From a virus, in the IMG/VR virus record IMGVR_UViG_3300044675_000724, positions 1-20,283 of that record: a stretch of 20,283 nt of DNA; one strand, given 5' to 3'. Position 1 is the stretch's first letter. Every line of letters starts with the position of its first letter. Below the pieces are notes generated by a model. It saw only the letters and a program-made list of their open reading frames with translations. It made no database searches and was not told where the DNA came from. The position numbers and the translations under genes are program-made. This document shows positions 3,208 through 18,536 of the stretch, piece after piece.

Positions 3208-4410
3208 CTAGTTAGCAGCGATTGATGAACCTGATGTGATTCGGAATAGTGCCTCATCACGGTAAACTGCAAAGCCGAGTACGCCGTACCAACCCATTGG
3301 GCGGAAACGCATCAACTTATCAGTTACGTTACCAATAACTACGTGTGGCTCTTCTGCTACGGCTTCTGCCATTGCTTGTGAACCTGCAACGATTGTGTCA
3401 AAGACACGTGTTACTGGAGTTACTGTAACAACTGTTGTTGTTGTAACTGCTGCTGAGTTAGCAACATCTACAGTGATTGTTGTTGTTGAACCTGTTGTTG
3501 AGAGAGCAGTAATCTTTGCAGATGTACCGATACCTGTTCCAGCAATTCCATCGCCAACTTCTGCGCGAGATGCAATAACAGAAGATGAAGCAACGCCGAA
3601 TGTAAATGCGGCTGAAACTCCTGCAACTGTTACTGCTGTTGTTGTCAATGCTGTCTGGTTTGCACCTGATTTAGCGTTGTACAAACGTGATGACTCTACG
3701 AAGAATGCGCCTTCGTACTCACCGATTTCTCCAGCCCAAATCTTGCTTGCTTCTGAAGCAGACTGTGCCTGTGGGTAGCGCCATCCTAGGTCGCCTGTCT
3801 CAGCACGAAGGTCGTGTGAAACTTCTGGGTGAATACCAACCCAGTATGCATTGCCGCGACGGCCCTTTGCCTTGTTCGAACGCAACTTAGCAACAGCCTT
3901 ACGGATGTCTGCTGAGTCAAGTGTGTCTGCAGCATCAACGTTAGCAACTGCTGTTGCATTGCCTGCGTAGATGTTGTTTGTTCCTGAGCGTAGAGTTGTC
4001 ATTGCAACATTGTCGATTGAATCTGCAAGGTTGTAAGCAATGATGTTTGCGATTGCTGGGTCTACATCTGCTAGAGAGAATAGTTCCAACGCACGTGTTA
4101 CAAGTACAGCGTTACCGTACTCGTTAAGTGTTACAGTAACAGATGTTGGTGTTGACAATGCTACTGCATCTGGGTCAACTGTCTCTGTTAGTGTTGATGT
4201 CTTAGCATCTAGGTCAACGTACTTCTGTAGAACTACAGTTGAACCTGGGATTGCTTGCTTTGCTGGACGCTTATCTGCGACAGAACGAATTAGGGGTTCT
4301 GAACGGAGAGCGAACTCGAGAAGGCGGTCATATGCCTTCTGTACGAGACCTGCGCCACCTACTGTACCACCGAATGAGGTGGCCGAGGTATCTGTATAGG
4401 CGTTTGCCAT
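3208..4410 (-). CDS. Major capsid protein, N4-gp56-like, with inserted beta domain
   Basis: This 400-aa protein follows the scaffold-like gene and carries features of HK97-fold capsids of the N4-gp56 type: an N-terminal helical arm with FALRSEPLIRSVADKRPAKQ, a beta strand region (GSTVVLQKYVDLDA), a helical segment around FSLADVDPAIANIIAYNLAD, the conserved-type block YWVGIHPEVSHDLRAETG, and a C-terminus of GWYGVLGFAVYRDEALFRIT. Residues about 248-334 are a Thr/Val/Ser/Ala-rich stretch of very different composition, placed between FFVESSRLYNA and RVFDTIVAGSQAMAEA. It looks like a beta domain inserted in the capsid core and probably exposed on the shell. The ATG has an AAGGAG ribosome site nine bases upstream. 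Capsid assignment is strong; the exact family is from memory of its motifs. Confidence 0.88.
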   Translation of the reverse strand: MANAYTDTSATSFGGTVGGAGLVQKAYDRLLEFALRSEPLIRSVADKRPAKQAIPGSTVVLQKYVDLDAKTSTLTETVDPDAVALSTPTSVTVTLNEYGNAVLVTRALELFSLADVDPAIANIIAYNLADSIDNVAMTTLRSGTNNIYAGNATAVANVDAADTLDSADIRKAVAKLRSNKAKGRRGNAYWVGIHPEVSHDLRAETGDLGWRYPQAQSASEASKIWAGEIGEYEGAFFVESSRLYNAKSGANQTALTTTAVTVAGVSAAFTFGVASSSVIASRAEVGDGIAGTGIGTSAKITALSTTGSTTTITVDVANSAAVTTTTVVTVTPVTRVFDTIVAGSQAMAEAVAEEPHVVIGNVTDKLMRFRPMGWYGVLGFAVYRDEALFRITSGSSIAAN

Positions 4411-4441: not shown

Positions 4442-4915
4442 TTATTGTTGACCTTGCATTAAAGCCATGAGTTCTTCCATTGAACTTGCATTGTTCATGC
4501 GTTGCTCGATGTCTTGTGCTCGGTCTGGTGTAACGGCATTTTGTGTCATTACATCTTGCTGACGTAGTGTAGCGAGATTTTGACTATCTGGTTTCTGAGA
4601 AACTTCAATGCCAAATAAGTCAGCGTTATCGTCGAGCCAGTTTGTAACTGACTCTTCTGAGAAATCACCGTCTAAATCCTTGAGGATTAGACGCGCTGCC
4701 TTCTGGTTTACACCCTTTTGTTCTAAGATTGATTTGACGGTTGACTCACGCTGCGCCTTGGAAAATCCCTCAAGTTGCTCAGTGAGTTCCTTGATACGCT
4801 TTTCATCAGCACGCTTGGCTTTTCGTAACTTTTTAAGTAAGTCACTGCCGTCCATTTGCGCCTCATTGTCGGTATCGAGGTCGTCGTCATCTTCATCCCA
4901 GTAGTTGTTGCTCAT
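4442..4915 (-). CDS. Scaffold-like capsid assembly protein (157 aa)
   Basis: The protein has the layout of a phage scaffolding protein: an acidic N-terminus (DEDDDDLDTDNE), then a charged coiled-coil-like helix (LLKKLRKAKRADEKRIKELTEQLEG), a mixed helical centre and a polar, Met/Gln-rich C-terminus (SSMEELMALMQGQQ). It sits immediately upstream of the capsid gene in transcription order, the usual place. In families of this type the protein guides capsid assembly and is lost or cut from the prohead, which here would give a substrate for the Ntn-type hydrolase encoded between portal and scaffold. A GAAGGGTGGG stretch before the ATG may serve as the ribosome site. Confidence 0.78.
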   Translation of the reverse strand: MSNNYWDEDDDDLDTDNEAQMDGSDLLKKLRKAKRADEKRIKELTEQLEGFSKAQRESTVKSILEQKGVNQKAARLILKDLDGDFSEESVTNWLDDNADLFGIEVSQKPDSQNLATLRQQDVMTQNAVTPDRAQDIEQRMNNASSMEELMALMQGQQ

Positions 4916-5031: not shown

Positions 5032-6393
5032 TTAGTATTGTCCTACGCTTGATGTCGTAAGACTTGTTTTGTTTGTACCGCTAGAGCCGCTAAAGGCTGC
5101 TATTTCGCGTGCAGTAAGTTTTTGACGCTTACGTTGCGCTGATGCCAAACTATTGAATACTTCTTGCTCACCTTCGGCTTGTCGGTATTCGTCCAATGTC
5201 GTCCCATAGATATCGGATAGTTTTTCAGCAGTCGGAAGAATGTCTGCAATGGTTGCATAACCCTTACGTGCTTCGGCTTCGGTAACACCTTGTGCTGCTA
5301 GTTGCTCGGCAACTGATACTCCAGCGGTAAGTCCTTGACGGCCTGCTGCTACACCAATCTCTGATGCTGCAATCTGGCGTTCAATCTTCTGGAACTGTTG
5401 CTGTGGGTCAAGTACGTAGGCAACCATGTCTGGTGCGCCAATACCGTAGTATTGCTTAAGTTGAGCAACAATAGCAGGGTCTGCATTCTGCACACGCTGC
5501 ACTGCTGTAACAACACGGTTGGAAAGTTCTGTTGGTGACATATCATTAGCGATGAATTGTCTTACGTATGCATCATTGTCAAACTGCTTTAGTCCGTAAG
5601 CACGTAGTACTTGACGGTAAGAATCTTCAACATTAACATACTCTGCAGGGGTTAGAACTGATAGACCCTTTTTAAGGCGGTCAGCGTTTGCTGCAAATCG
5701 TTGCTGGTATTCTGGTGTCTCTTGTAACTGTAAAGTAATTGTTGCCTCTGTTGCACCAGCAATAGCAAGTTCTTTAATCTTATTTGCAAGTCCAGTAAGA
5801 CCGTACTTGTTAAAACGGTCTGCCATAGATGAGTAAATACTAATGCGTTCATTGTACTTAGCAGCATCTGCTGCTGCTTTATCTGCTGCAGTATTTCCTG
5901 AAAGTTGTCTTGTTAATGCAGCAATTTGGTCTTGTAATGCTTTCAGGGAAGAATTGCTTCCAGCATTTGCTGCTGCTAACGCTGCTGCTGCTTGAGCCGC
6001 TGCTAATCTTGCTGCTTCTTGTGCTCGACGCGCTGCATCTGCTTCTGCTGCATTACGCGCCGCCGCTGCTGCTGCATCTGCTGCTGCTTTGTCGGCTGCT
6101 GCTTTATCGGCTTCTGCTTTAGCATTTGCTATTGATTCTGCTGCCGCTGCTCTTGCGGCATCTGCTGCTGTTCGTGCTTCTGCAGCAAGTGTATCTAATT
6201 CTGCTTGGCCTTCATTCCAGTTATATGGGGATGCAGGCTTTGGGGCTGCTGGTAGACCTAGGTATTCGCGCTCTACTGCTGATAAAGTTTGACCTGATGA
6301 TAATTTTCTAACAGCGGCTTGTGCTTGTGGTCCAGTTAATAATGGTTTTGGAGTACTGTCTCCATCTGGCATGTATCTATCTGTAATAGCCAT
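5032..6393 (-). CDS. Virion-type protein with Ala-rich coiled coil (453 aa)
   Basis: Residues about 68-145 are a long Ala-rich helix with regularly placed Lys, Asp, Glu and Arg, followed by a conventional coiled coil (SLKALQDQIAALTRQLSG, about 149-166). The rest is a helical globular part with blocks such as LQETPEYQQRF, LTPAEYVNVEDSYRQVLRAYG and AQLKQYYGIG. These blocks resemble repeats found in large virion or ejection-associated proteins of environmental phages, as far as I recall. The ATG overlaps the stop of the 311-aa gene (TAATG). It belongs to a set of three consecutive virion-type genes after the giant protein; an internal or ejection protein is the most likely role. The Ala-rich DNA is built of GCT/GCA codons, which produces long Leu-rich mirror frames on both strands that are not genes. 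Confidence 0.65.
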   Translation of the reverse strand: MAITDRYMPDGDSTPKPLLTGPQAQAAVRKLSSGQTLSAVEREYLGLPAAPKPASPYNWNEGQAELDTLAAEARTAADAARAAAAESIANAKAEADKAAADKAAADAAAAAARNAAEADAARRAQEAARLAAAQAAAALAAANAGSNSSLKALQDQIAALTRQLSGNTAADKAAADAAKYNERISIYSSMADRFNKYGLTGLANKIKELAIAGATEATITLQLQETPEYQQRFAANADRLKKGLSVLTPAEYVNVEDSYRQVLRAYGLKQFDNDAYVRQFIANDMSPTELSNRVVTAVQRVQNADPAIVAQLKQYYGIGAPDMVAYVLDPQQQFQKIERQIAASEIGVAAGRQGLTAGVSVAEQLAAQGVTEAEARKGYATIADILPTAEKLSDIYGTTLDEYRQAEGEQEVFNSLASAQRKRQKLTAREIAAFSGSSGTNKTSLTTSSVGQY

Positions 6394-7328
6394 TACATTA
6401 GCCCCCAGTCTTTCATGACCTTGTACTGCATAGAGTCAATTGAATCTCTAGCATTATTTGTAAATTGCCAGCGAACATCAGAACGCAAGTCTGATTCAAA
6501 TTGCCATAATGGCATTACCTGTGAACCGCCAGCCTCTTTAGTCTTTTCGAATCCTCTATACTGCAAAGCCTTCATAAGAGTTGGGTCGTCGTATCCAATA
6601 GAATCAGCATCAATTTCAAGGATATTAGCCATTGAGGATTTGTAAGCAGATGCTAAAGCATCCATTGTTACGCCCTTCATAATCTGGTCTGCAAACCCTG
6701 GGTACTTGCTTGCTGATTCAACCTTAATTGCTTCTTCAACTTCTGAATCTGTGATACGGTTTGCAAATAGGTCAGCGCCCCACTGATTGTATTTAGCCTC
6801 AGTATATGATAAACCATAAGAACGAGCAAGGGTTTTAAAGTCTTGCATTTGGCCGAGAATAGTTCCACCAAATTTACCACCATAACTATTTGTTAAAGTA
6901 ATAGATGAATCTAATTGAGTATCAGTAAGATTACCAGCATATGCTTTCTTAAGCAAATCAGTAAGTTCATTATCTTCAACTCGAACACCTAATTTAAATA
7001 GGCGATTCTTTTGATTTGAAATATAAGCAGCCTCATCGGCAAGATATACTTCTGGTTGGTTCTTGCTTAATGCAAAACGTGAAGCAGCAGTCTTGCCTAA
7101 TTTTAAATAATAGTTAGACTGGAAGTATGCATTAAGTGCTGCAGTCTCATCGCCAGCAGCCCATAGGTCGTAGACCTCTTGTAGTCCTCCAGGACCTTTA
7201 CCATATGTAGGGTCGTCAAGGAGTGCTCGAGAAAGAACAAAGCCAAGGCTTGCTGTTAACTTAGACATGTCAGGAGCAGGCTTGTTTGATGCTGCGTTAA
7301 TGCCTTCAATAGTATTTGTATCAACCAT
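6393..7328 (-). CDS. Putative internal virion protein (311 aa)
   Basis: The protein is helical and soluble, with no membrane segment. The centre has LARSYGLSYTEAKYNQWGADLFANRI and the C-terminal part has SIGYDDPTLMKALQYRG followed by MPLWQFESDLRSDVRWQFTNNA and a final helix ending KDWGLM. I recall this order (helical pair, a DP-containing loop, then WxxxLRxD-like helix) from structural-block proteins of phages of actinobacteria, where it often ends near a C-terminal LG or WG. It lies between the 252-aa and 453-aa genes, overlapping both by the TAATG arrangement, so the three are probably made in fixed proportion. The ejection or internal-virion role is inferred from the neighbouring giant protein. 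Confidence 0.62.
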   Translation of the reverse strand: MVDTNTIEGINAASNKPAPDMSKLTASLGFVLSRALLDDPTYGKGPGGLQEVYDLWAAGDETAALNAYFQSNYYLKLGKTAASRFALSKNQPEVYLADEAAYISNQKNRLFKLGVRVEDNELTDLLKKAYAGNLTDTQLDSSITLTNSYGGKFGGTILGQMQDFKTLARSYGLSYTEAKYNQWGADLFANRITDSEVEEAIKVESASKYPGFADQIMKGVTMDALASAYKSSMANILEIDADSIGYDDPTLMKALQYRGFEKTKEAGGSQVMPLWQFESDLRSDVRWQFTNNARDSIDSMQYKVMKDWGLM

Positions 7329-8086
7329 TAGCGACCACCTCGCATTTGTTCTGCCTGTTGCATGAAGTCAAAGAAACTTAGTTCCCTTTGCTGTTGATAT
7401 TTTTCTGGTTCTAGTTCTTTAGCAACACGCTCTACAACAGCACCCGCACGCTCATCACTATACCCAGCGGTTTGGACAATTGTATCTTTACCAGACTTAT
7501 CTCTTTTGGTAGTTGTGGTTGTTCCTTCTTTAATTAACTTGTTAATCTCGTCCATAATCTTTTTACGAGACTCTTCTTTAATATTAGTGCTGCCAATAGT
7601 CTCCAAAAGAAACTTGTCGACATTCTGCTTTAGTAGGGCTGGTGACTTTTCAGTAATATACTGTGTTACACCGCTAGACTTTATTTTATCTTCTTCTGTA
7701 GTGCTGTAACCAGTTGCTTCGTCTTTAAATAACTGGATTAACTTCTTTACACTACCCTCAGCATTCTCAACAAGTACGTCAAAGTTGGTTTGTAAGAAAT
7801 CTTTAGCATTTGGATATGTAGAAAGATTAGTTTTAGTTGCACCAAACTTTTTAAGATAAGGAATAATCTGTTGCATTTCCGCTTTAGTTAGGTTAGTGAC
7901 AAAGTTAATCTTATCAACTTCTTTATCTTTAACAACCTCAACGCCAACGTTATCTAATCCTGTGTCAATTGCTGAACCTAGACCACCAGGTAGCGTACTG
8001 TTTGAACCAGGACGAAGTACTGTGCCTGTACCCAAAGGAGGGGTAGACGTAACCTTAGGTTTACGACCGATAACTGGCTCTACCAT
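7328..8086 (-). CDS. Virion-block protein of unknown function (252 aa)
   Basis: I do not recognise a family. The first 45 residues are Pro/Gly/Thr-rich and probably disordered; the rest is helical and Lys/Glu-rich (AEMQQIIPYLKKFGA; ESRKKIMDEINKLIKEG), with a Thr tract (GTTTTTKRDKSGKD) that may be a loop, and a C-terminus PEKYQQQRELSFFDFMQQAE. Both ends overlap neighbours by TAATG. Immediate downstream position to the giant 1661-aa protein suggests that the two interact or are both ejected, but this is only context. Confidence 0.6.
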   Translation of the reverse strand: MVEPVIGRKPKVTSTPPLGTGTVLRPGSNSTLPGGLGSAIDTGLDNVGVEVVKDKEVDKINFVTNLTKAEMQQIIPYLKKFGATKTNLSTYPNAKDFLQTNFDVLVENAEGSVKKLIQLFKDEATGYSTTEEDKIKSSGVTQYITEKSPALLKQNVDKFLLETIGSTNIKEESRKKIMDEINKLIKEGTTTTTKRDKSGKDTIVQTAGYSDERAGAVVERVAKELEPEKYQQQRELSFFDFMQQAEQMRGGR

Positions 8087-11000
8087 TACTTGCTCCTCTT
8101 TGGTGGTTCATAATCGAATATAAAACTAAAGTCATCTCCGTCAAAGTATCTGTCATAAAATTGACCAAACTTTATATCCTTATTGCGCAATTCCCATACT
8201 TTAATTGAGACTTTATTTTGTATGTCAATTGCTGCTTTAGTTCCGTAGTTAAGTTTTCTGCGCTTTAATTCATCATTAATTTCATAGCGGAAGTTCATGT
8301 ATTCAATAATAGCAGCCATTCGCGGTTGCTTAGATAGGTCTTTCCACATCTCGGGTGTGTTGGCAGCAATAGTAATAGCCTTAATAACATCAGCCGTTTG
8401 ACCAGTGTCTCCGCCACCCTTGCTTTTTTCTTTGATATCGTACCACATAGGATTTTGGGTCTTTTGTTGTTCGATAAAAGAATCCTTGTATTGTTGCAAG
8501 ACTTCTGCACCATAGCCACGTGCTGGGTCTAAGTTGTAAGGTGGCTTCTTCATTTCTGTTGAAACTACTTGAATTAACTTAAACCAACTATTCCAGCCTT
8601 GGTTGACAATCACTGACTTCATATTTTCAAGTGATGCTTCGTTTTCTTTGTATTTTCTGTCCAACCCAGGAATCTTCTGTGTACGAAGATAAGCATCTGC
8701 TGAACTAGAAAATGCATAGTTGTCATCATTAAAGACAGCACCTAATGCGGTAAGGTTATCAATGTTAGTAACAATTTCTCTTGTTGCAAAGTTATTACGC
8801 TTTAGCAAAGAAACTGACGTATCATCTGAGCGAAGTCCAGATACGGAGTTGGTCAGTTTTGCTGCAAACATAAAGTAGTCAGGGTTGTTCTTGAAGAAAT
8901 TTTCGGCCCCATTATCTGGGTCAGCCTTGATTGCCTCATTAAATCTATCTTCATAATAAGATATTGCAGTACGCATCTTAGGCTGTTGTGGCATTGAAAA
9001 TGCTGACAAAAGACGTACAACCGATAGGCTATACGCATCTTCTTCTGCTCTTATGCTGATTGCATTTAGTTCAGATGGGTTGGGCTGACGGTCTTTTTCT
9101 ACATAAAAATCATAAAGATATTGTTTTGTAATCATATCTTTATCTTTATTTAATTGCTCGCCGCCACGTTCTTTTCCAATTAATGGAATGTTAGTCGCAG
9201 CCCATAAGTCTCCAACTTTTCTCCATGTGTTTGGAGTATAAGCAGATGCATTATTTGTTGATACACCAAACGGTAGCAAGAACTGACCTAGTTTGGTTTC
9301 TGCAAATTCAGTATTTTTAGCAGTCATATTAGCGATTGTGGTTGCAAGTGGACCTGCAGATAAAAGCGAACCAGAAGTTGGATTAATTGGATTAAACCAA
9401 CTAACTCCAAAACGTGCCTTTAATCCTGTGCGTGGCATTGTGTACTCAATGTACTTGTTGCCATAAGCATCTTCCTGGACATTACCAATGTATTCTGGAA
9501 TCTGCGCAGCGTAAGCAAGACGGATAGGAAACTCTGGGTTATCTACCATGATGCGCCCGTATGCTTTAAACTGTTCTACAACCGCAGGGAAGAAGGCTAT
9601 AACATAGTTCATTATACCAGAAAAGTTCATATCCTTTGAAAAGGCGTTAATCTTGCTACGGTATTCATTAATAGCATATGAACGGGCAATTTTTTCATAG
9701 CGCAGTTTATTTTCAGCGTTAGGAATAATACCACGTTCATTGGCAACTAATACTAAACTTTCCAACTTTTCGTAATACTTAGAAGCAAAATAATGGTTGT
9801 AGTTAAGTCTAGAAGTTGGTACTGTAGCCATCCAAGTTACAACATTCTTTTGCAAATTATTTAATCCTTGTATAATACCACTTGTGCCTAGAGCAGCAGT
9901 TGTAACATCCCCAGCAACTGGTGGTCGTTCTGCAACATTTGGATATAATCTAACAAGTTCTGTAGGAGTTATCTTACCACTAAGAACTAGTTTTCTTATT
10001 TCTTCATTAGAAGCAAGACTTTCTACAGCGTAGTTAACGCGCTCATAAATATATTCAGCATCATCCTTGCGCAGTGGACGCGCAGGCTTTCCTTCTTCGA
10101 CAATAGTTAATCCAAAGCGGCTGATATATGGACGCTGCGCATCTTGTTGTAGCCAGTTCATTAACTCTGGCTTGCTCATCTTGCCTTCCATAATTTTCTT
10201 AGAAAGCGGGTCAATTCCAATGTGATTATTAAGCATATCAGTCCAAGCCGACAAGTGTGCTGATTCGTTACCGACTGGCTGTATTACTCTTAAGCCATAA
10301 CTATTGCGTCGCACTGAATCCATTTGGAGTTCGCGAAGAGATGCTACTGCACCACGGATACTTTCTTTGCCTTCTAAAACCTGACGGCTGATAGCAGCCA
10401 ATCCTTCGTCAGAAACAGCAAGTGGAAATTCCCATCCAGGCTGAACAACTCTACCCTTTCCAACTACCTTAGTTGGCACGTTAGCAAGAATCGCACTTTC
10501 TTGACGGCGTAATTCTTTATTTGTTGCTGCAATTTCGTCTCGATATTTAACCAGACGCTCGACAGAAGGTGGAAATTCAATTGGAGGGGCGCCTTTTTTG
10601 GGCTTCTTGTAGTAGCCTTCGGCTTCCAGGTTTCCTTCTAATACATTTAAAATTTTAGTATTTTCGTCAACAGTGTTGCGAATTTTCTTCAAAGTACGCT
10701 TAGGATTATTCGTGTCTCTTTCCAAGGCAGAAATTTTCTTTACGCTGTTGAGCCCATTTGTTATAGCCTCTAGAGTACTTTGACTCATTTGAGAGTACAA
10801 AGAAAACATAGATGCGTCTGTCCAAGCACGGAAATTAGCATCACGAAGGATGTTTATGGGGAACCCACCACGTGCCAAAGTTCCGCTACGCCATACTGCT
10901 TGTAGTTCATCCAATGCTGTTTTTGCACCGTACGCAGTAAGTTTTGCTCCCTTAATAGCGGGAGACTCATCCTTGCGAAATTCTTTGAAAGCATTAACGA

Positions 11001-13071
11001 TGGTTGGAACATCTGGTAGATACGCGCCATTTGCAAGTTGGGTAATCAACTGTGGGTCTTCAATACCTGTTCCATCTTTGCCAACCATGTAAGCACGGTT
11101 TTCAGTCTTTGCTAAACCTGCTTCTGCTTTAGTTTCGCGGGTATTCTTTAAGTATGTTTGAACTGCTAGGTCTGCAACAGATTCGTGGTGACCAGAGGCA
11201 ATAGCAGCATTTCTAATTACTGCTTCTGCGTATTTTTCAACTAAATCATACTTGATGCCTTCGTTTGAGGCAACAGTAAAATCGTTGTATATTCTTAACG
11301 CTTCTTTTTCGTCAAGAACTCCATAACGAACAGAGTCACGAAGACTTGTGCGAATGCGTGTAGCAGCCTGAATACCTTCATCAAATTTAATTGTAGCATG
11401 TGGAGCAGAATCTAAAGCGCGAGATACAATCTGCATTGGTGTTCCAAAGGCACTGTTTTTGTACAAAGATGTTATTAACTTGCCTGTTCCAGTTTCCTGA
11501 CGAATGCCATGAATAAGTTCAGAGTTAGACATATCTTTTTCGCGCCACTTTGTTGGATTAAATCCCAACTTTTCTCCAGATAGACTAACTGCAGTTGCGC
11601 GAACGGCTCTATCAGCACGCTGACGCTCAACCCATGCAAATGGGGATACGGTTCTATCTGTCTTAAGCCAGTCTTGAAGGTCTATTGTTTTTCTAAGAAA
11701 ATCATCTTTTGCAGAAAGTGCAGCATATTCTGCTTTAATCATATTGGCTTCATCGCCATCTGCATACTTTTTACCAAGCATCATCATCTTGTTATCGTGG
11801 CGAAACCACATCATTCCATCTTGCTCAAGAGCGGCAATACCAGATTCATAACGATTTAATTCCATTGCAGTATCTGCATAGTCTGGATTATCTAAAAGTT
11901 CATCAATAGCATCTGGGTCTCCCATACCAATACGAAGAACAAGAGACTTTTCTAAGTCTGATTTCTTGCTAAGTAAAGCAGCAGCAGTAGGACCCATATC
12001 ATTATTTTTTAAAAGTGGGTGATTACTTATTGTTGCAGCGTCATTATCTAAAAATGCAAATAGTGTAGAGTACTTTGATGGTTCGCTGCGTCCTGCTTTT
12101 TTAAGTTCTTCAAAGTTAACGTCTTCTCTATCGGCTAACTCCATACCTTTTATGCCAGTTGCGCGACCAATAAAGTCAGCAGTAAGACCCTGGCTTTTAG
12201 GAACTAACCCACCCTTAAGTGCGCCAGTTGCAATTCTACCAGTAAGGGCTGCACCTGCTAGTACAGGGTCAGTAAGAACTTCTCCACCAAGGTTAAAAAA
12301 ACCTTTGCTGATAATACCAATGCCCATGCTTGTATCTCCAAGAGATTTAAACCCTTTGATACGTGCTAGTTGCACTGTAGTATCTTGACCAAAATTATAA
12401 TGTTCTTGACCTACACCTGATTCGGCATAGATTGCTGCTTGCTTTGAATTTTCGCCAACAGTTCCTGATTTTGCAATATTACGGCTAACCGCACCTGTGT
12501 AACCCATACCAATACGAAAACCTGCAAGTGCTCCTGCAACGGCTCCTACTGTTGATGTAATTGGAGCGGCTGGTCCACCAATAAGTCCTGTTGCTGCGCC
12601 AACGCCAGCACCAGTAATTGCTCCTGCAAGTCCACCTGCAATTAGGTTTAATCCAGCAAGCATTCCCTTTGCTGTTTCGTCATCACCAAGTGCGCGAACA
12701 AAAGAATAATTAGCACGTACGTTTCTTTGGCCAGCAGTTGCTAATTTTAATGGGGTTTCCATTGTTTTTGAAACTTTTTTCTGTACTGACTCTGGAATAA
12801 CTTTATCAATACCTGCACCAATAAATCCAGAAACGGCAGACATGCCTTTAATTGCGAGAATGCGAGCATCCTCGACATCTTGATTTGTAATTCCACGTTT
12901 CATCGCTAATTGACTTTGTGTATTAAGTTTACTAATTCTAGATAGCAGTGATTTTGAAGTATCTAAAGTTACGCCAAAAGGAACGCGACCGTTAGTTGCT
13001 GGGACGGCACTTGTCTTAACATCGTTTCCGATATCTTTTTGAAGATTACCAATGTATTCCCATAGATTCAT
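8086..13071 (-). CDS. Giant virion protein with glycine-zipper segment (1661 aa), ejection-type
   Basis: At 1661 residues this gene takes up a quarter of the window. Residues about 136-192 form two hydrophobic Gly/Ala-rich stretches (LNLIAGGLAGAITGAGVGAA and VGAVAGALAGFRIGMGYTG), a glycine-zipper pattern typical of proteins that insert into or cross membranes. The remainder is mostly helical and charged, with segments such as LARGGFPINILRDANFRAWT in the middle and MNYVIAFFPAVVEQFKAYGR followed by FGVSWFNPINPTSGSLLSAG in the C-terminal third. Very long internal virion proteins of podoviruses (for example T7 gp16 or the N4 virion RNA polymerase) are ejected with the DNA; this one has no transglycosylase or polymerase motif that I can point to. 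The start overlaps the preceding stop as ATGA. Ejection or DNA-translocation role is inference from size, zipper and place next to the portal. Confidence 0.7.
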   Translation of the reverse strand: MNLWEYIGNLQKDIGNDVKTSAVPATNGRVPFGVTLDTSKSLLSRISKLNTQSQLAMKRGITNQDVEDARILAIKGMSAVSGFIGAGIDKVIPESVQKKVSKTMETPLKLATAGQRNVRANYSFVRALGDDETAKGMLAGLNLIAGGLAGAITGAGVGAATGLIGGPAAPITSTVGAVAGALAGFRIGMGYTGAVSRNIAKSGTVGENSKQAAIYAESGVGQEHYNFGQDTTVQLARIKGFKSLGDTSMGIGIISKGFFNLGGEVLTDPVLAGAALTGRIATGALKGGLVPKSQGLTADFIGRATGIKGMELADREDVNFEELKKAGRSEPSKYSTLFAFLDNDAATISNHPLLKNNDMGPTAAALLSKKSDLEKSLVLRIGMGDPDAIDELLDNPDYADTAMELNRYESGIAALEQDGMMWFRHDNKMMMLGKKYADGDEANMIKAEYAALSAKDDFLRKTIDLQDWLKTDRTVSPFAWVERQRADRAVRATAVSLSGEKLGFNPTKWREKDMSNSELIHGIRQETGTGKLITSLYKNSAFGTPMQIVSRALDSAPHATIKFDEGIQAATRIRTSLRDSVRYGVLDEKEALRIYNDFTVASNEGIKYDLVEKYAEAVIRNAAIASGHHESVADLAVQTYLKNTRETKAEAGLAKTENRAYMVGKDGTGIEDPQLITQLANGAYLPDVPTIVNAFKEFRKDESPAIKGAKLTAYGAKTALDELQAVWRSGTLARGGFPINILRDANFRAWTDASMFSLYSQMSQSTLEAITNGLNSVKKISALERDTNNPKRTLKKIRNTVDENTKILNVLEGNLEAEGYYKKPKKGAPPIEFPPSVERLVKYRDEIAATNKELRRQESAILANVPTKVVGKGRVVQPGWEFPLAVSDEGLAAISRQVLEGKESIRGAVASLRELQMDSVRRNSYGLRVIQPVGNESAHLSAWTDMLNNHIGIDPLSKKIMEGKMSKPELMNWLQQDAQRPYISRFGLTIVEEGKPARPLRKDDAEYIYERVNYAVESLASNEEIRKLVLSGKITPTELVRLYPNVAERPPVAGDVTTAALGTSGIIQGLNNLQKNVVTWMATVPTSRLNYNHYFASKYYEKLESLVLVANERGIIPNAENKLRYEKIARSYAINEYRSKINAFSKDMNFSGIMNYVIAFFPAVVEQFKAYGRIMVDNPEFPIRLAYAAQIPEYIGNVQEDAYGNKYIEYTMPRTGLKARFGVSWFNPINPTSGSLLSAGPLATTIANMTAKNTEFAETKLGQFLLPFGVSTNNASAYTPNTWRKVGDLWAATNIPLIGKERGGEQLNKDKDMITKQYLYDFYVEKDRQPNPSELNAISIRAEEDAYSLSVVRLLSAFSMPQQPKMRTAISYYEDRFNEAIKADPDNGAENFFKNNPDYFMFAAKLTNSVSGLRSDDTSVSLLKRNNFATREIVTNIDNLTALGAVFNDDNYAFSSSADAYLRTQKIPGLDRKYKENEASLENMKSVIVNQGWNSWFKLIQVVSTEMKKPPYNLDPARGYGAEVLQQYKDSFIEQQKTQNPMWYDIKEKSKGGGDTGQTADVIKAITIAANTPEMWKDLSKQPRMAAIIEYMNFRYEINDELKRRKLNYGTKAAIDIQNKVSIKVWELRNKDIKFGQFYDRYFDGDDFSFIFDYEPPKRSK

Positions 13072-13553
13072 ATAATGGTCCTAAGGTAATTTACATAATC
13101 CTTAGTACCCTGTGAAGTATCTATTTGCTCTGCCCATAGTTCAATAACTGGGAAATATTCACGTACTAAATCTAAATCAGGGTCATTGATAACTTCTTCT
13201 TGCCCTGGCATCATAAGTGATTCTGGTCCTGGAGTAGTACCAATTGCTGCACCTGTTGTAATATTTTCATCTGGGAAAGCAGATGGTGCTGTTAGTGGCA
13301 TAGGAATCTGGCCTTCGCCTGCTCCAGCGCCTGCCCCTGAGCCTTTAAATGCTGCTGCAGTTGTTGGGCCTGCCAACTTCGCACCTTTTTGCTGGTCCAT
13401 TGTAGCCTTGCCTTGACCGTACCCCATACCAGGAATGTACGTAGGAGCCTGTGTTCCGTTTCCGCTTTGACCGTTACCACCGAATGGATTGATATTGGCA
13501 GGATTATTCTGTGGTGCGTTTGGACGCATACCTCCACGATTTTCTACAGCCAT
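13068..13553 (-). CDS. Gly/Pro-rich linker-type protein (161 aa)
   Basis: About the first 110 residues are low-complexity (Gly, Asn, Pro, Gln, Ala), with no likely fold, and the last 45 form an acidic helical domain (DLDLVREYFPVIELWAEQID). It starts on a TAATG overlap with the protease-like gene, whose last codons contain an AAGGAG ribosome site, and ends on an ATGA overlap with the giant protein gene. The form (long disordered arm plus short folded end) would fit a linker or chaperone for the giant protein, or a substrate of the adjacent hydrolase. No family recognised. Confidence 0.65.
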   Translation of the reverse strand: MAVENRGGMRPNAPQNNPANINPFGGNGQSGNGTQAPTYIPGMGYGQGKATMDQQKGAKLAGPTTAAAFKGSGAGAGAGEGQIPMPLTAPSAFPDENITTGAAIGTTPGPESLMMPGQEEVINDPDLDLVREYFPVIELWAEQIDTSQGTKDYVNYLRTII

Positions 13554-14131
13554 TATTTCTCCTTATTACCATGTTGTGTAAAAATATGAATTGGTTGTGA
13601 GCACATGTTGTCGTATTGAATTGCAATAGAAATTGCTTTACGAATCATTCGCTCTGCTTCTTTAATAGTATTTACTTTTTCCACACCCAACGCTGCCAAT
13701 GCACCGAGGGCAACATCTCCGCCACTACCCATAACATATACGTTACGAACATCGGTATCCCAAGAGTAATCCTCAGAAACCGAAAAAATTTGCCCTTTAA
13801 CGGAGATGATGAATCCTCCATCGATTTGCGCGACATCGCCGTCCTCTTTCATGTCTATACCAGCATCAACAAAATTCTTACGCATTGCTGGGATAAATTT
13901 CTGCGTCATATAAGTATTTAAATCTTCTTTAATGGTTGGCTTAGGTTGCACGTATCCATAATGTAAAACATTACTTGCACGTGATGAACCACAGCCACCA
14001 ATTAAGATGCTATTGTTATCAACAATCTTAGGAGTCTTAGCAATCTGAAAGCGACCATGTTCATCGCTAAGGCGAGAATCGCAGCCCATTACAGACCAGC
14101 CATCACCTTGTATCGCTACTAAAGTTGTCAT
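13553..14131 (-). CDS. Proteasome/HslV-like Ntn hydrolase, putative head maturation protease
   Basis: The 192-aa protein has the layout of a proteasome beta or HslV subunit. It begins MTTLVAIQGDG, so removal of Met by the host aminopeptidase would expose Thr2 as the N-terminal nucleophile with no propeptide needed, as in HslV. Asp18 followed by SR (CDSR) fits the conserved D17-S-R of proteasomes; Lys35 in KTPKI fits K33 with one residue inserted; GGCGSS (45-50) fits the substrate-binding Gly turn; MGSGGD (134-139) fits the conserved GSG; Asp174 with Cys177/Ser178 fits the D166/S169 site. Length is near that of HslV. It lies between portal and scaffold/capsid genes, where a prohead protease is normally found, and no other protease gene is seen. 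A CPU-like role in protein turnover is an alternative, but no ATPase partner is near. Fold assignment is strong; role is inferred. Confidence 0.85.
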   Translation of the reverse strand: MTTLVAIQGDGWSVMGCDSRLSDEHGRFQIAKTPKIVDNNSILIGGCGSSRASNVLHYGYVQPKPTIKEDLNTYMTQKFIPAMRKNFVDAGIDMKEDGDVAQIDGGFIISVKGQIFSVSEDYSWDTDVRNVYVMGSGGDVALGALAALGVEKVNTIKEAERMIRKAISIAIQYDNMCSQPIHIFTQHGNKEK

Positions 14132-14146
14132 TGTCCCCTACTTAGA

Positions 14147-15937
14147 TTATCTACGCGTTACTGTCCGTACTGATGCTGTTGGTGTTCCTCCGCCAGATAG
14201 ACCAGAGAGTAAACTTTGAATACTTGGTGGTGCTACAGGTGCTCCTTCTGGCATTCCTTCTGGCATTGGTGCGCCTTCTGGAGAGCCTCCTACTGGAGAA
14301 CCAGGGGGAACAGGGGACGGTTGCTCAACCGATGGAACCCCAGCAGGAGGAACTTGTTGCTCTGGAGCAAATGTCTCTTCGATTGCATCTTCAAGTGCCT
14401 GTCCCTTTTGGCGTGCCTTAATAACATCGGCAATCTTACGTACTATTTCGCTTGGGTCTCCACCAGTTGTAGCCAATTGTGGAATTGCTTGTGTATATGC
14501 TGTAAGCGCTCCAAGTAATGCATCACGCATCTTTTCAATTTCAATTTTTTCTTGTTCTTGAGATACGTTAACTGTAAATGGAAGTTCACGCATAGCCATA
14601 TCTTTGGATATTAATCCACCACCAAGTGCCTGTAGCATGAAAATAAGTCCCTGTGCTGGGTTAAGACCAGCCAACATACCATAGCGAACATCTGCTGAGT
14701 AATCACCCTTAATATCTTTCTTAGGTGAGTATGTAATTTCATAAGGTGAACCTGAATCTACACCACGAATTGTTTTCTCTGATGGGAAAATCTTCTCATC
14801 AACCTGGAAACAGATTTGAATTACATCACGTAGTGCAGATGCAAAGATTGCTTGAGCAGATTTAACCTGTGTATCAAAGGCTCCCATAAGAGCCTGTACG
14901 CCTTGTCCTGTAACAACTGATGCGCTGATATTACCAGTACGTGATTCAGGATAACGAGCACCCACACGTAGTTCTTGATTAAGCAAACTCTGTTCTGTAA
15001 ACGCGCCTGCTGGAATGTTAAGTTCTACACGGCGTACACCTGCTGGGTTGGATGTGCGAATAACCGCATCTCCACCAAGTTGCAACTCCTGTACATCCTG
15101 TGGGAGTACAATAGGTGCTTGTACTGACTTCTCTGCTGCTTCCATCGCAAGTAACGCAAAGCGGTTACGCAGTAATTGAATTCCAAGGATGTCATCAAAC
15201 TGTCCGCGAAGTTCATCATCAATAGATGGCTTACGTGCTACTACGACCATCATCTTACCCAATGGATTCATAGCATGTGAAAGAACTAAATTATTCTTTG
15301 TAGGGATATAGATGATTGATTGGTCTTTGTCGAAGTAACGAATCATTTCAATTTGAGTATTCAAATCCTGCTTGTAGCCGTGGCCACCTAACAAGGAATA
15401 TTCGTACTCAGGGAACAGTGAAACTAACTCCGCCAAAGAAGTCATGTAGCGTTTTGCAAAGGCAATGCAGCGTCCGTAGCGGTCAAATTCTGGGTAAGCA
15501 CCCAGTGGGTTTTCTAGGCGGATGCGCGGCAACTTTGCTTCCTCATCCAACTCAATAAAGAATGGGAGGAAACCGTAGGTTAGATACCAGTCAGCACCTT
15601 GGTACATCTGTACCGAAAGGTCTGAGTGTGAAAAATAGTTTGATGCAATACGTGTGCGTCTATCAGCAAAACCACGCGCTCTGTCAGAAACAGAGTTAGC
15701 CGCTGAGCAGTTAATTGCAGGAAGCGGAGCCATAACTTCTGACAAGTCGCGTGCGACAATGTCGATAAAGTTGGCAACTACGTTAGCGTCTACTCCGTCT
15801 GGAAAGAAATCAGGATAGACAGATGCAATCTGGCCTTTACGAACTGCAAGAACGTCAAGGTTACGACCGTCACGTTCAGCGTTGCGGAAGCGAAGGTTCT
15901 CGACCCGCGCTGCAACTTGTTCCATCGATAATGCCAT
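14147..15937 (-). CDS. Portal protein
   Basis: The 596-aa protein sits two small genes after the large terminase and has the look of a phage portal. Early blocks include VANFIDIVARDLSEVMAPLP and RIASNYFSHSDLSVQMYQGADWYLTYG, an acidic loop, and a long central helical part with LNQELRVGARYPESRTGNI and GVQALMGAFDTQVKSAQAIF, which fits the stem-and-crown region of portals. The last 75 residues or so are Pro/Gly/Glu-rich (PAGVPSVEQPSPVPPGSPVG) and probably disordered, ending in a basic RTVTRR. By family knowledge the portal forms a dodecameric ring at one vertex, through which the terminase packs DNA. The ATG is preceded by TTAGGA, a ribosome site shared with the two small genes upstream. Slight doubt remains as to which portal family it belongs to. 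Confidence 0.85.
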   Translation of the reverse strand: MALSMEQVAARVENLRFRNAERDGRNLDVLAVRKGQIASVYPDFFPDGVDANVVANFIDIVARDLSEVMAPLPAINCSAANSVSDRARGFADRRTRIASNYFSHSDLSVQMYQGADWYLTYGFLPFFIELDEEAKLPRIRLENPLGAYPEFDRYGRCIAFAKRYMTSLAELVSLFPEYEYSLLGGHGYKQDLNTQIEMIRYFDKDQSIIYIPTKNNLVLSHAMNPLGKMMVVVARKPSIDDELRGQFDDILGIQLLRNRFALLAMEAAEKSVQAPIVLPQDVQELQLGGDAVIRTSNPAGVRRVELNIPAGAFTEQSLLNQELRVGARYPESRTGNISASVVTGQGVQALMGAFDTQVKSAQAIFASALRDVIQICFQVDEKIFPSEKTIRGVDSGSPYEITYSPKKDIKGDYSADVRYGMLAGLNPAQGLIFMLQALGGGLISKDMAMRELPFTVNVSQEQEKIEIEKMRDALLGALTAYTQAIPQLATTGGDPSEIVRKIADVIKARQKGQALEDAIEETFAPEQQVPPAGVPSVEQPSPVPPGSPVGGSPEGAPMPEGMPEGAPVAPPSIQSLLSGLSGGGTPTASVRTVTRR

Positions 15938-15980: not shown

Positions 15981-16181
15981 TTACAGAGTACCGTGTGTTT
16001 GTGAAAAAAGTTCTTCTTTAATAGCCTTTTTAATTTTACTTATTACGGATGGCGTTTTCTTTTTAGGAAGTTGAGGTCCTTGAATTTTTACAGAACCCAT
16101 CATGCCACCTTGAGGCTTATAGATAGGCGTAACGTTTTTTCCACCTGAACCCATAATGCCGCCTTGATTTCTATCTGACAT
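15981..16181 (-). CDS. Short basic protein with IYKPxGG motif (66 aa)
   Basis: The 66-aa product starts with Gly/Met-rich MSDRNQGGIMGSGGK, followed by VTPIYKPQGGMMGSVKI and a basic helix (KTPSVISKIKKAIKEELF). The motif IYKPxGG is repeated near the end of the upstream 119-aa protein, and the gene is bounded by two copies of an exact 25-bp sequence, so partial duplication of a small gene is likely. A TTAGGA ribosome site precedes the ATG. The function is unknown; position between terminase and portal might suggest a packaging or portal-associated role. Confidence 0.6.
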   Translation of the reverse strand: MSDRNQGGIMGSGGKNVTPIYKPQGGMMGSVKIQGPQLPKKKTPSVISKIKKAIKEELFSQTHGTL

Positions 16182-16189
16182 TTTATATT

Positions 16190-16214
16190 CCTAACTTAGA
16201 TTTAAAAAATTATT
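16190..16214. repeat. 25-bp direct repeat, copy 2 (before the 66-aa gene)
   Basis: Exact second copy of the 25-bp repeat at 15944-15968. It overlaps the stop codon of the 119-aa gene and supplies the ribosome site of the 66-aa gene. The two copies are 246 bp apart and enclose that gene. Confidence 0.85.
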
Positions 16215-16569
16215 TATTTTTGATTGAAAGAAGGCCAAGACCAGAGCCGCCCATTGGCTTATAAATTGCAGAAACTTTAGCGCCGCCTGTGCCAGAGATT
16301 CCAGGAGTAGAGCGAACACTAACTGTTGGACCCTTGGTGACATTTTTTTCTGCATGCGCACGAATATCTAGTGTACCCATAGCAGTATTGCGCGTTCTAG
16401 CAGATTCGGAAGCATTTCTATTTCCACGCTCAGCCGCTGTCATTGGTGGGACTGCTTTAACATTTGAACCAGGAGTTTTTGGCTTTGCTGCTGCAGCCTT
16501 TGCTGCTTTTGCATCTGCTTTGGCTTGTAGGGCTTTTGCCTTTGCTTTAACTTGTTGTGGTGTTGGCAT
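16210..16569 (-). CDS. Basic Ala/Lys-rich protein (119 aa)
   Basis: The first 36 residues are an Ala/Lys/Gln helix (QQVKAKAKALQAKADAKAAK) resembling a highly basic nucleic-acid-binding tail. The middle is polar, with EKNVTKGPTVSVRS, and the C-terminal part has GGAKVSAIYKPMGGSG, the same IYKPxGG motif as in the 66-aa gene downstream. The ATG is preceded by TTAGGATAATAAA. The gene lies 9 bp after the terminase stop. No family is recognised; a role in DNA handling during packaging is conceivable from its charge and place. Confidence 0.65.
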   Translation of the reverse strand: MPTPQQVKAKAKALQAKADAKAAKAAAAKPKTPGSNVKAVPPMTAAERGNRNASESARTRNTAMGTLDIRAHAEKNVTKGPTVSVRSTPGISGTGGAKVSAIYKPMGGSGLGLLSIKNK

Positions 16570-16578
16570 TTTATTATC

Positions 16579-18447
16579 CTAACTATAAGTTTCTTGCCAT
16601 TGCTCAGCGAATGCTTCGTCTAAGTTTAATGACATACGTTGTTGTTTTTGACTTCGGGTTGCCCAGCGGTTAGTTTGATATTGACCCACCGCAGAGGATT
16701 GTTGCATTAATTCACGTACACGTATAATAGCAAACCATAAAGCCATCACACAGTCAGTTGGGTTTTTAGTATCTGGCTTCCAGGTAATGAGTTGCTGCAC
16801 CAAAGACTTGAGTCCTTCTGAGCCTTCATTACTTGGTAGTTCTATGATACCGTTGTTCTGGTAGCGTTCATTGCTAATGCTGCCAAAAAGGCTAGCCATA
16901 GATGCTACACCGAAAGACGTGTCCCACTTGTTCTTGCCTGTAAAGTGTGAGTTCAATTGACAACCATAGGTTGCTAGATAGTTACGTAAATCCGTATCCA
17001 TAGCATAATACTTCTGGTGTGCGTTAATCTCCACACGAAACTCTTGAGGATGGTACTTCTCAACCCACTCACGAATAAGAGCATTCTCTTTTTGAGGTGT
17101 CGGGTCCGCCATGTTTACGCAGTCCAGTACATATATCTGACCATCGTCGCGGTTGTACGTTACTGCTACGAAAGCAGAGCGACCAGATACTGCAGGGTCA
17201 AAACCAATTACTGTGTAGATTGAGCCTGCTCTTTGCGGGTGTCCTGGAGTACCAGGTTTAAGCGGTCCACGCTTTCGCATACCGTTAACACATCCTGCAA
17301 CTGCTGTTGGCGGAAAGATAGAGTCTTGTTGGACATCTTCTTGTTGGTAGACCATAGCCCATACTGACGGAGCGACCTCAGAGCGACGCTTAAAGAGCGA
17401 GGGTCCATCCCACTTAGGGTAAAGCCCATCTTCGAATTGCTCATCTAAATCGTTCTCCTGGATGTTGGTCTTAGGCCACAACGTTTTCCAGTTCTGCGGG
17501 TTCTCATCAAATTGCAGAACGGCAGGCATAGCACAGTAGGTAAAGGGAGTCTTGCCACCAGTCCATTGTGCGCCATCACGTATCATTTTATACAAATCTA
17601 CGGGAGCGACACGGGTTCCTACTATAAGTAATTTTCCGTGCCGTCCCAGACGTGTGATAACTTCCTTTTGAAGCCATTCAATTTGCTTCTCCCATTCATG
17701 GGCATTTGAGTTCATCACAACGTCGTCTAGGATAATCAGGTCGGCGCGTGCGCCGTAAATCTGGGAACCAAATCCAAGTGCTTGCACTGTGGGGTCTTTC
17801 TCGCCAGAATCTCGTCCCGTTCCTAAATATATCATGTCGGCAGACCATTGGGTTGCATCTGCCTTATAGCCTCCATTTGGGCCAAAGGCCGTCTGGAGTT
17901 TCATATATGCTGGGTGGCTAAGACGAGTCTTAATCGCACCTAAGAATTTACGTGCCATACCCTGGGTCTTGGACACGATGATAACTCGCGCATTGGGGTT
18001 GGTCACAATTGTGTACAACGCATAGTTGGTTGTAATGGTGGTTGACTTGGCGTGCTCGGGTGGCACGTTAATCAGGACACGCTTTGGGTCTCCTGGCTCG
18101 TAAGTCATACCTGCAGGTTGCCATCGTGGCTCACGACCTTCAATAAGGTCTAGCCAGTTAAGTTGATGGTCAAAGAGGGTAGTGTCCAGAAACTGCTGGG
18201 AGAAGTCGGGGTAGGATATATCTTTGAGTTCTGCCAGGTCTGCTTTGATGCCTTTGCCTGCAAGGCGGGCTTTTTCAGACTTTTCCTTAAAGGATTCGTC
18301 CACCATGACCCATTGACGAAAGGCTGTATCTTGTCTACCGACGGCGGCCATAGCGGCCGTAATGGTAGCACCCTGTTCTAGTAGGGCTAGTACTTTAGCC
18401 TGGGCTTCGTCTTTAGGTACTGATTGTACCCCTGGTTTACGTCCCAT
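16579..18447 (-). CDS. terL: Large terminase with N-terminal helix-turn-helix segment
   Basis: The 622-aa protein carries both terminase activities. The ATPase has a Walker A at 127-136 (NVPPEHAKST, Lys134), a Walker B at 237-242 (LIILDD) and a coupling-type segment LLIVGTR at 273-279. The RNase H-like nuclease has Asp417 in GFDPAVSG, Glu473 in RVEINAH and Asp565 in PTDCVMALW, the three acidic residues expected for metal binding. Residues about 12-62 (LLEQGATITAAMAAVGRQDT, AFRQWVMVDESF) look like a helix-turn-helix of the kind normally found in small terminase subunits or Tc1-type DNA-binding proteins. No separate small-terminase gene is seen nearby. In the family this motor cuts and pumps DNA through the portal. 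It begins with ATG after a TTAGGAGACAATA ribosome site and is the first large gene of the leftward block. Confidence 0.95.
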   Translation of the reverse strand: MGRKPGVQSVPKDEAQAKVLALLEQGATITAAMAAVGRQDTAFRQWVMVDESFKEKSEKARLAGKGIKADLAELKDISYPDFSQQFLDTTLFDHQLNWLDLIEGREPRWQPAGMTYEPGDPKRVLINVPPEHAKSTTITTNYALYTIVTNPNARVIIVSKTQGMARKFLGAIKTRLSHPAYMKLQTAFGPNGGYKADATQWSADMIYLGTGRDSGEKDPTVQALGFGSQIYGARADLIILDDVVMNSNAHEWEKQIEWLQKEVITRLGRHGKLLIVGTRVAPVDLYKMIRDGAQWTGGKTPFTYCAMPAVLQFDENPQNWKTLWPKTNIQENDLDEQFEDGLYPKWDGPSLFKRRSEVAPSVWAMVYQQEDVQQDSIFPPTAVAGCVNGMRKRGPLKPGTPGHPQRAGSIYTVIGFDPAVSGRSAFVAVTYNRDDGQIYVLDCVNMADPTPQKENALIREWVEKYHPQEFRVEINAHQKYYAMDTDLRNYLATYGCQLNSHFTGKNKWDTSFGVASMASLFGSISNERYQNNGIIELPSNEGSEGLKSLVQQLITWKPDTKNPTDCVMALWFAIIRVRELMQQSSAVGQYQTNRWATRSQKQQRMSLNLDEAFAEQWQETYS

Positions 18448-18503
18448 TATTGTCTCCTAAAAACGCCTATTTAACGGTAGGGCTAAACGGGCATAACTGT
18501 CCC

Positions 18504-18536
18504 ATTATAATTATAATTTTATATATATTATATATA
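18504..18536. other. 33-bp pure A/T tract upstream of the terminase gene
   Basis: Thirty-three consecutive A/T bases lie 57 bp before the terminase start, with TATAAT-like hexamers in both directions. This could be a DNA unwinding element for the nearby DnaA-box cluster, or the -10 part of a leftward late promoter; I could not pick a matching -35. Confidence 0.6.

Follow-up and report, generated by a model that had tools for sequence, protein, structure and literature searches.

Gene organization of the locus

The window, i.e., the whole 20,283-nucleotide stretch of viral DNA analyzed here (IMG/VR record IMGVR_UViG_3300044675_000724), carries on its minus strand, in this order, a terminase gene, two small open reading frames (ORFs), the genes for a portal protein, an Ntn hydrolase, a 161-residue protein and a 1661-residue protein, three further protein genes, and those for a scaffold-like protein and the capsid.

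16579 to 18447, minus strand: terminase large subunit (PHROG 38, E = 1.6e-65)
15981 to 16569, minus strand: two small ORFs (119 and 66 residues) separating the terminase from the portal gene; DNA identity marks them as another exchanged slot
14147 to 15937, minus strand: portal protein, 596 residues, conserved, bordering the exchange slot on the left (PHROG 104, E = 2.9e-30)
14135 to 14139, minus strand: Shine-Dalgarno-like AGGGG of the Ntn gene, read from the sequence
13553 to 14131, minus strand: Ntn hydrolase gene of the proteasome-beta/HslV/BPH type, slot type 5, 192 residues (PF00227, PHROG 1040, fold model and residues)
13068 to 13553, minus strand: Gly/Pro-rich protein, 161 residues, right border of the slot (PHROG 8200)
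8086 to 13071, minus strand: 1661-residue protein of no known family, highly variable among relatives (ORF and comparison)
7328 to 8086, minus strand: 252-residue protein of the variable block (ORF and comparison)
6393 to 7328, minus strand: 311-residue protein (PHROG 6654)
5032 to 6393, minus strand: 453-residue protein with a variable N-terminal part (PHROG 8424)
4442 to 4915, minus strand: scaffold-like protein, 157 residues (PHROG 7813; weak match to the scaffolding family PHROG 648)
3208 to 4410, minus strand: major capsid protein of the N4-gp56 family (TIGR04387, 109 bits; cut-off, 60)

The Ntn ORF starts with an ATG at 14131 and ends with a stop codon at 13553, as the initial annotation had delimited it, and lies on the minus strand; the plus strand across the same interval is riddled with stops. 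The portal stop codon and the Ntn start are separated by 15 bases that include the AGGGG ribosome site. The Ntn stop codon and the start of the 161-residue gene overlap by a single base, and this downstream gene is preceded by an AAGGAG motif. The place of the Ntn gene in the late operon suggests that it is expressed along with the head genes. The gene had initially been described as lying between the portal and the scaffold and capsid genes, which is right as to position, but approximately 8.6 kb of other genes intervene before the scaffold gene is reached. The largest of the intervening products, the 1661-residue protein, is a probable internal or ejection protein. Among phages whose portals are 80 to 98% identical, its identity ranges from 65% down to undetectable, and 41 clusters of this giant protein were found in 153 loci.

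The ORF codes for a proteasome-type Ntn hydrolase

Profile, fold and residues identify the product of the ORF at 13553 to 14131 as a genuine Ntn hydrolase of the proteasome-beta/HslV type. The protein matches the Pfam Proteasome family PF00227 above its cut-off (27.3 bits, E = 3.4e-6; cut-off, 22.4) and PHROG 1040, "peptidase HslV family," with an E value of 1.8e-23. With the HslV equivalog TIGR03692 it reached 20.4 bits, far under the cut-off of 157.75. A single-sequence search of the PDB retrieved HslV only at an E value of 0.22, and establishing kinship required a comparison of folds. Two scans of genome contigs with the single protein, which returned 24 and 26 pattern matches, revealed no bacterial or prophage relatives.

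An AlphaFold2 model built on 38 aligned sequences had a pLDDT of 90 and a pTM of 0.88. Comparison of this model with solved structures confirmed the Ntn fold, in agreement with the initial proposal of a threonine hydrolase resembling HslV and proteasome beta subunits. Foldseek retrieved HslV (4hnz, E = 2.2e-11) and BPH (5ovu, TM = 0.75), and VIA-align gave Z scores of 19.9 for an archaeal 20S beta subunit (2.9 Å over 170 residues), 19.5 for the Mycobacterium 20S beta subunit (3mka) and 19.4 for BPH. Residues 2 to 190 adopt the two-sheet fold with an N-terminal nucleophile strand and match HslV, BPH and 20S beta, and the model contains both helices H1 and H2 (residues 50 to 58 and 71 to 89). 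The commonest short Ntn type among the relatives was modeled with a pLDDT of 92, and its best Z score, 18.6, was to BPH.

The placement of the catalytic residues was judged from alignments. Thr2 aligns to Thr1 of the beta subunits, and the equivalents of Thr1, Asp17, Lys33 and Gly47 are Thr2, Asp18, Lys35 and Gly48. Met1-Thr2, Asp18, Lys35, Gly48 and Gly135-x-Gly137 (G135-S-G137-G in the window) occur without exception in the 186 complete relatives, which represent five types of the enzyme. Of the features noted earlier, Thr2, Asp18, Lys35 and the first and third residues of GSGG are retained throughout, but Asp174 and Cys177/Ser178, initially counted among them, are confined in the alignment to the window's type and not conserved in the others. 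Pairwise dN/dS values inside the types range from 0.07 to 0.16, indicating that the gene is under purifying selection. The conserved fold and active site, together with this constraint, make it very likely, as judged from sequences and model, that the enzyme is active as a hydrolase.

The portal-adjacent interval is an exchange slot

The phages nearest to the window in the databases are OX376640 and OX376641, with portals 82 to 85% identical and capsids approximately 78% identical. These accessions correspond to Planktophila phages E7 and F5, for which a "Ca. Nanopelagicales" bacterium served as the isolation host (PMC10202952), and the window belongs to a phage family with cultured members on "Ca. 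Planktophila" (Nanopelagicales), a host type that represents abundant or dominant freshwater actinobacteria. In E7 and F5 (LanE43-AprE7 and -AprF5 in PMC10202952), the portal-adjacent slot likewise holds an Ntn gene, whose product is about 27 to 30% identical to that of the window; the E7 gene is of type 2. The description of these phages reported high gene flux and an 8-kb variable island, and its main text does not mention the slot gene (PMC10202952). The next relatives, Streptomyces phages of the Beephvirinae, have the same gene order without an Ntn gene. The capsid proteins differ by an insert of about 68 residues (roughly residues 245 to 330), which is present in the window, in F5 and in the genome containing locus L088 and missing from G009, G001, G002 and FlowerPower.

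We surveyed IMG/VR with searches anchored on the portal, taking the best 80 matches per scan, so that the sample is biased to close relatives. Altogether, 294 distinct loci were read, and those with sufficient flanking sequence and a portal identity of 60% or more were defined as the close group. Among the matches listed, the Ntn gene lies directly behind the portal gene in 183 of 196 close loci (93%) and is absent from the remaining 13, where an unrelated gene of 73 to 90 codons is found instead. Eleven of these 13 loci, again among the matches listed, have a protein that we call YAI, and two have one that we call SEW. Two of the Ntn-free phages are represented by near-complete genomes, of 39.9 and 37.5 kb, and neither contains an Ntn gene anywhere. 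Nor was one present in any of the 66 loci of the Beephvirinae-like, Streptomyces-type sister group among the matches listed.

The YAI protein ("YSKLEEYAIWLNEYYKSLRKAGF," 73 to 90 residues) fills the slot in L144, L158, L190, L213, L215, L217, L226, L247 and L272, and in the surveyed loci it never occurs together with Ntn, among the matches listed. The conserved SEW protein ("GWVLVSEWADYEGTRYLMTDVSENMNPW," 80 to 86 residues) is encoded directly after Ntn in L239, L086 and about 40 other loci with type 1 or 2 enzymes. Its gene overlaps the Ntn stop codon by 4 bases in 43 of the 44 loci having both, and the window's Ntn type is seldom accompanied by it (2 of 58 loci). Neither protein matched a family in Pfam or PHROGs.

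The 186 complete Ntn relatives fall into five types of 77, 61, 27, 12 and 9 members, with identities between types of mostly 25 to 40%, about 30%. Phages that are nearly identical around the slot may carry different types. Thus, the window and L088 have portals that are 98.2% identical, scaffolds that are 94% identical and capsids that are 92% identical, and their Ntn proteins share approximately 30% identity. In a DNA comparison the two are about 95% identical up to the Ntn start and about 45% identical from there, with identity climbing again in the gene that follows. On the portal tree, the state of the slot changed at least 21 times, including at least 6 changes between presence and absence. 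The Ntn type is uncoupled from the type of capsid, scaffold or giant protein. Coupling to the giant protein was considered and rejected after giant clusters had been compared with Ntn types: seven clusters have more than one Ntn state, and two of these include Ntn-free phages. The interval from the portal gene to the 161-residue gene is an exchange slot whose occupant, one of five Ntn types or one of two small unrelated genes, is replaced by recombination. The gap between the terminase and portal genes (15981 to 16569) is a second exchanged slot, with about 35% DNA identity to L088 compared with about 95% in the flanking portal gene.

A probable accessory hydrolase that may target host proteins

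No HslU-type unfoldase (PF07724) was found in the window, which is a fragment, or in seven relatives of 37.5 to 40.5 kb, and all 14 control genomes were matched by the same profile. The only AAA match in the relatives was a DnaB/RecA-like ATPase of 260 to 271 residues that the Ntn-free genomes have too. Linked AAA+ partners of novel proteasome homologues were likewise not found by Fuchs et al. (PMC8665760). Without an HslU/Clp AAA+ protein, the enzyme is most likely ATPase independent or assisted by a host ATPase and directed at targets other than head proteins.

On balance, we favor an accessory threonine hydrolase of the late operon that probably targets host proteins, e.g., those involved in defense, stress or quality control, the phage's own head proteins being unlikely substrates. 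Removal of Met1 would expose Thr2 as the nucleophile, which would act together with Asp18, Lys35 and the oxyanion loop at Gly48. As the relatives have no dedicated unfoldase, the protein probably forms a self-compartmentalized or small assembly, possibly a ring, and would cleave unfolded or exposed proteins, or else it might borrow a host ATPase. Host defense, stress or quality-control factors would be the most likely targets, and we propose that this is why Ntn versions are swapped between near-identical phages while the catalytic residues are kept. Against an accessory role, presence in 93% of close relatives at a fixed place is more regular than is typical of an accessory gene, and the late-operon location points to joint expression with the head genes. 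Moreover, ordinary recombination between flanks that resemble each other can also produce the swapping of alleles, with no arms-race selection involved, and the dN/dS values within types denote constraint, not diversification.

A more elaborate version, which we put forward only tentatively, is that the portal-linked locus swaps specificity types. A fixed catalytic core would then be combined with differing surfaces, each type disabling different host proteins, e.g., defense factors, and SEW and YAI would serve as partners or substitutes.

Rather unlikely is a partnership with the host proteasome, in which the phage protein would borrow or compete for the proteasomal ATPase or alter assembly of the host 20S particle. 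The bacterial 20S beta subunit is among the closest solved folds, no unfoldase of the phage's own was found, and actinobacteria, the hosts of the cultured relatives (PMC10202952), are a phylum where 20S proteasomes are found (PMC8665760). However, phages of Escherichia coli and Caulobacter have similar enzymes.

We also regard it as improbable that the enzyme processes internal, ejection-type virion proteins, i.e., the giant protein and its neighbors, or controls their folding. These genes follow the Ntn gene immediately and share its high variability, and giant phages have proteolyzed packaged proteins (PMC10052503). However, a given giant cluster can occur alongside several Ntn types or in phages devoid of Ntn.

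Head maturation is very unlikely to depend on the Ntn enzyme

The initial annotation proposed that the Ntn fold is used for head maturation; the enzyme would be packaged in the prohead, cut the scaffold, portal or capsid protein and substitute for the usual serine protease. The gene lies directly behind the portal gene, its active-site residues are intact, and, as stated earlier, no recognized prohead protease was seen elsewhere: no match to Peptidase S78, S49 or ClpP was found in the window, in five near full-size Ntn-bearing relatives (38.5 to 40.5 kb) or in two Ntn-free genomes.

Nevertheless, the comparison of relatives makes this role very unlikely. The enzyme is not needed wherever the head module occurs, since 13 of 196 close loci and two near-complete genomes have none. 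Scaffold and capsid are colinear, with closely similar N termini, in phages with and without Ntn, including the two near-complete Ntn-free genomes, arguing that the head module can do without the enzyme. No capsid propeptide or cleavable scaffold extension linked to Ntn was found in these colinear N termini. The Streptomyces-type sister clade retains the gene order in the absence of Ntn (66 of 66 loci), and Ntn has been swapped for versions of about 30% identity between phages whose portal, scaffold and capsid proteins are still 92 to 98% identical. In other phages, Ntn genes sit among accessory genes, apart from head genes, and phage LeeroyJenkins encodes two separate enzymes, an Ntn protease and, behind the portal gene, a capsid maturation protease of the standard kind. 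The Ntn-free relatives, the sister clade, the swapping and LeeroyJenkins led us to reject a head protease as the leading explanation. The heads of T7-, P22- and phi29-like podoviruses mature without proteolysis, and this is the simpler reading for the present phage group as well. Gene position alone is a poor ground for naming a head protease.

A role as a specific amide-bond ligase or transpeptidase like connectase, in which SEW would serve the type 1 and type 2 enzymes as an acceptor or a regulator, is most improbable, since connectase, the precedent in the same superfamily (PMC8665760), lacks both flanking helices H1 and H2 that the model contains, and the window's type mostly lacks SEW despite the overlap of the two genes elsewhere.

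Relation to known proteasome homologues

The PPH, AAH and CPH proteins described by Fuchs, Alva and Lupas in 2021 (PMC8665760) and the members of PHROG 1040 share with the window protein the Ntn fold and the Thr1-Asp17-Lys33-Gly47 residues, the lack of a propeptide and of a linked AAA+ gene, and their presence in tailed phages. In contrast to PPH, described as a protein of about 140 residues without H2 (PMC8665760), the window protein has 192 residues with both H1 and H2 and does not belong to that group, and the window's phages differ from PPH/AAH/CPH in the fixed portal-adjacent slot and the five swapped types. HslV (ClpQ) gave the best profile matches among named bacterial peptidases and the top Foldseek matches, but the window protein scores far under the equivalog cut-off and HslU was not found. 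BPH (5OVS/5OVU) is the closest or equal closest solved fold and likewise has no known unfoldase; it is known from bacteria, however, and is 17 to 25% identical to the window protein. The capsid maturation proteases (LeeroyJenkins gp25 and Peptidase S78/S49/ClpP-like enzymes) occupy the same place behind the portal gene but have a different fold.

Phage homologues of the proteasome are thus already known, and what appears to be undescribed is the fixed portal slot, the five swapped types and the mutual exclusion with small proteins; a portal-linked proteasome homologue of phages did not come up in the open-licence literature searched. Proteasome-like phage genes have long been listed without any function. 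This group offers hundreds of variants at a fixed place, natural absence, clean swaps, two cultured members and a cultured host, so that the function of Ntn can be tested in comparisons of phages for which this gene is the main difference. In the genome containing L088, a class-II glutamine amidotransferase-like gene adjoins an amidoligase_2-like gene (L381, positions 17160 to 18520).
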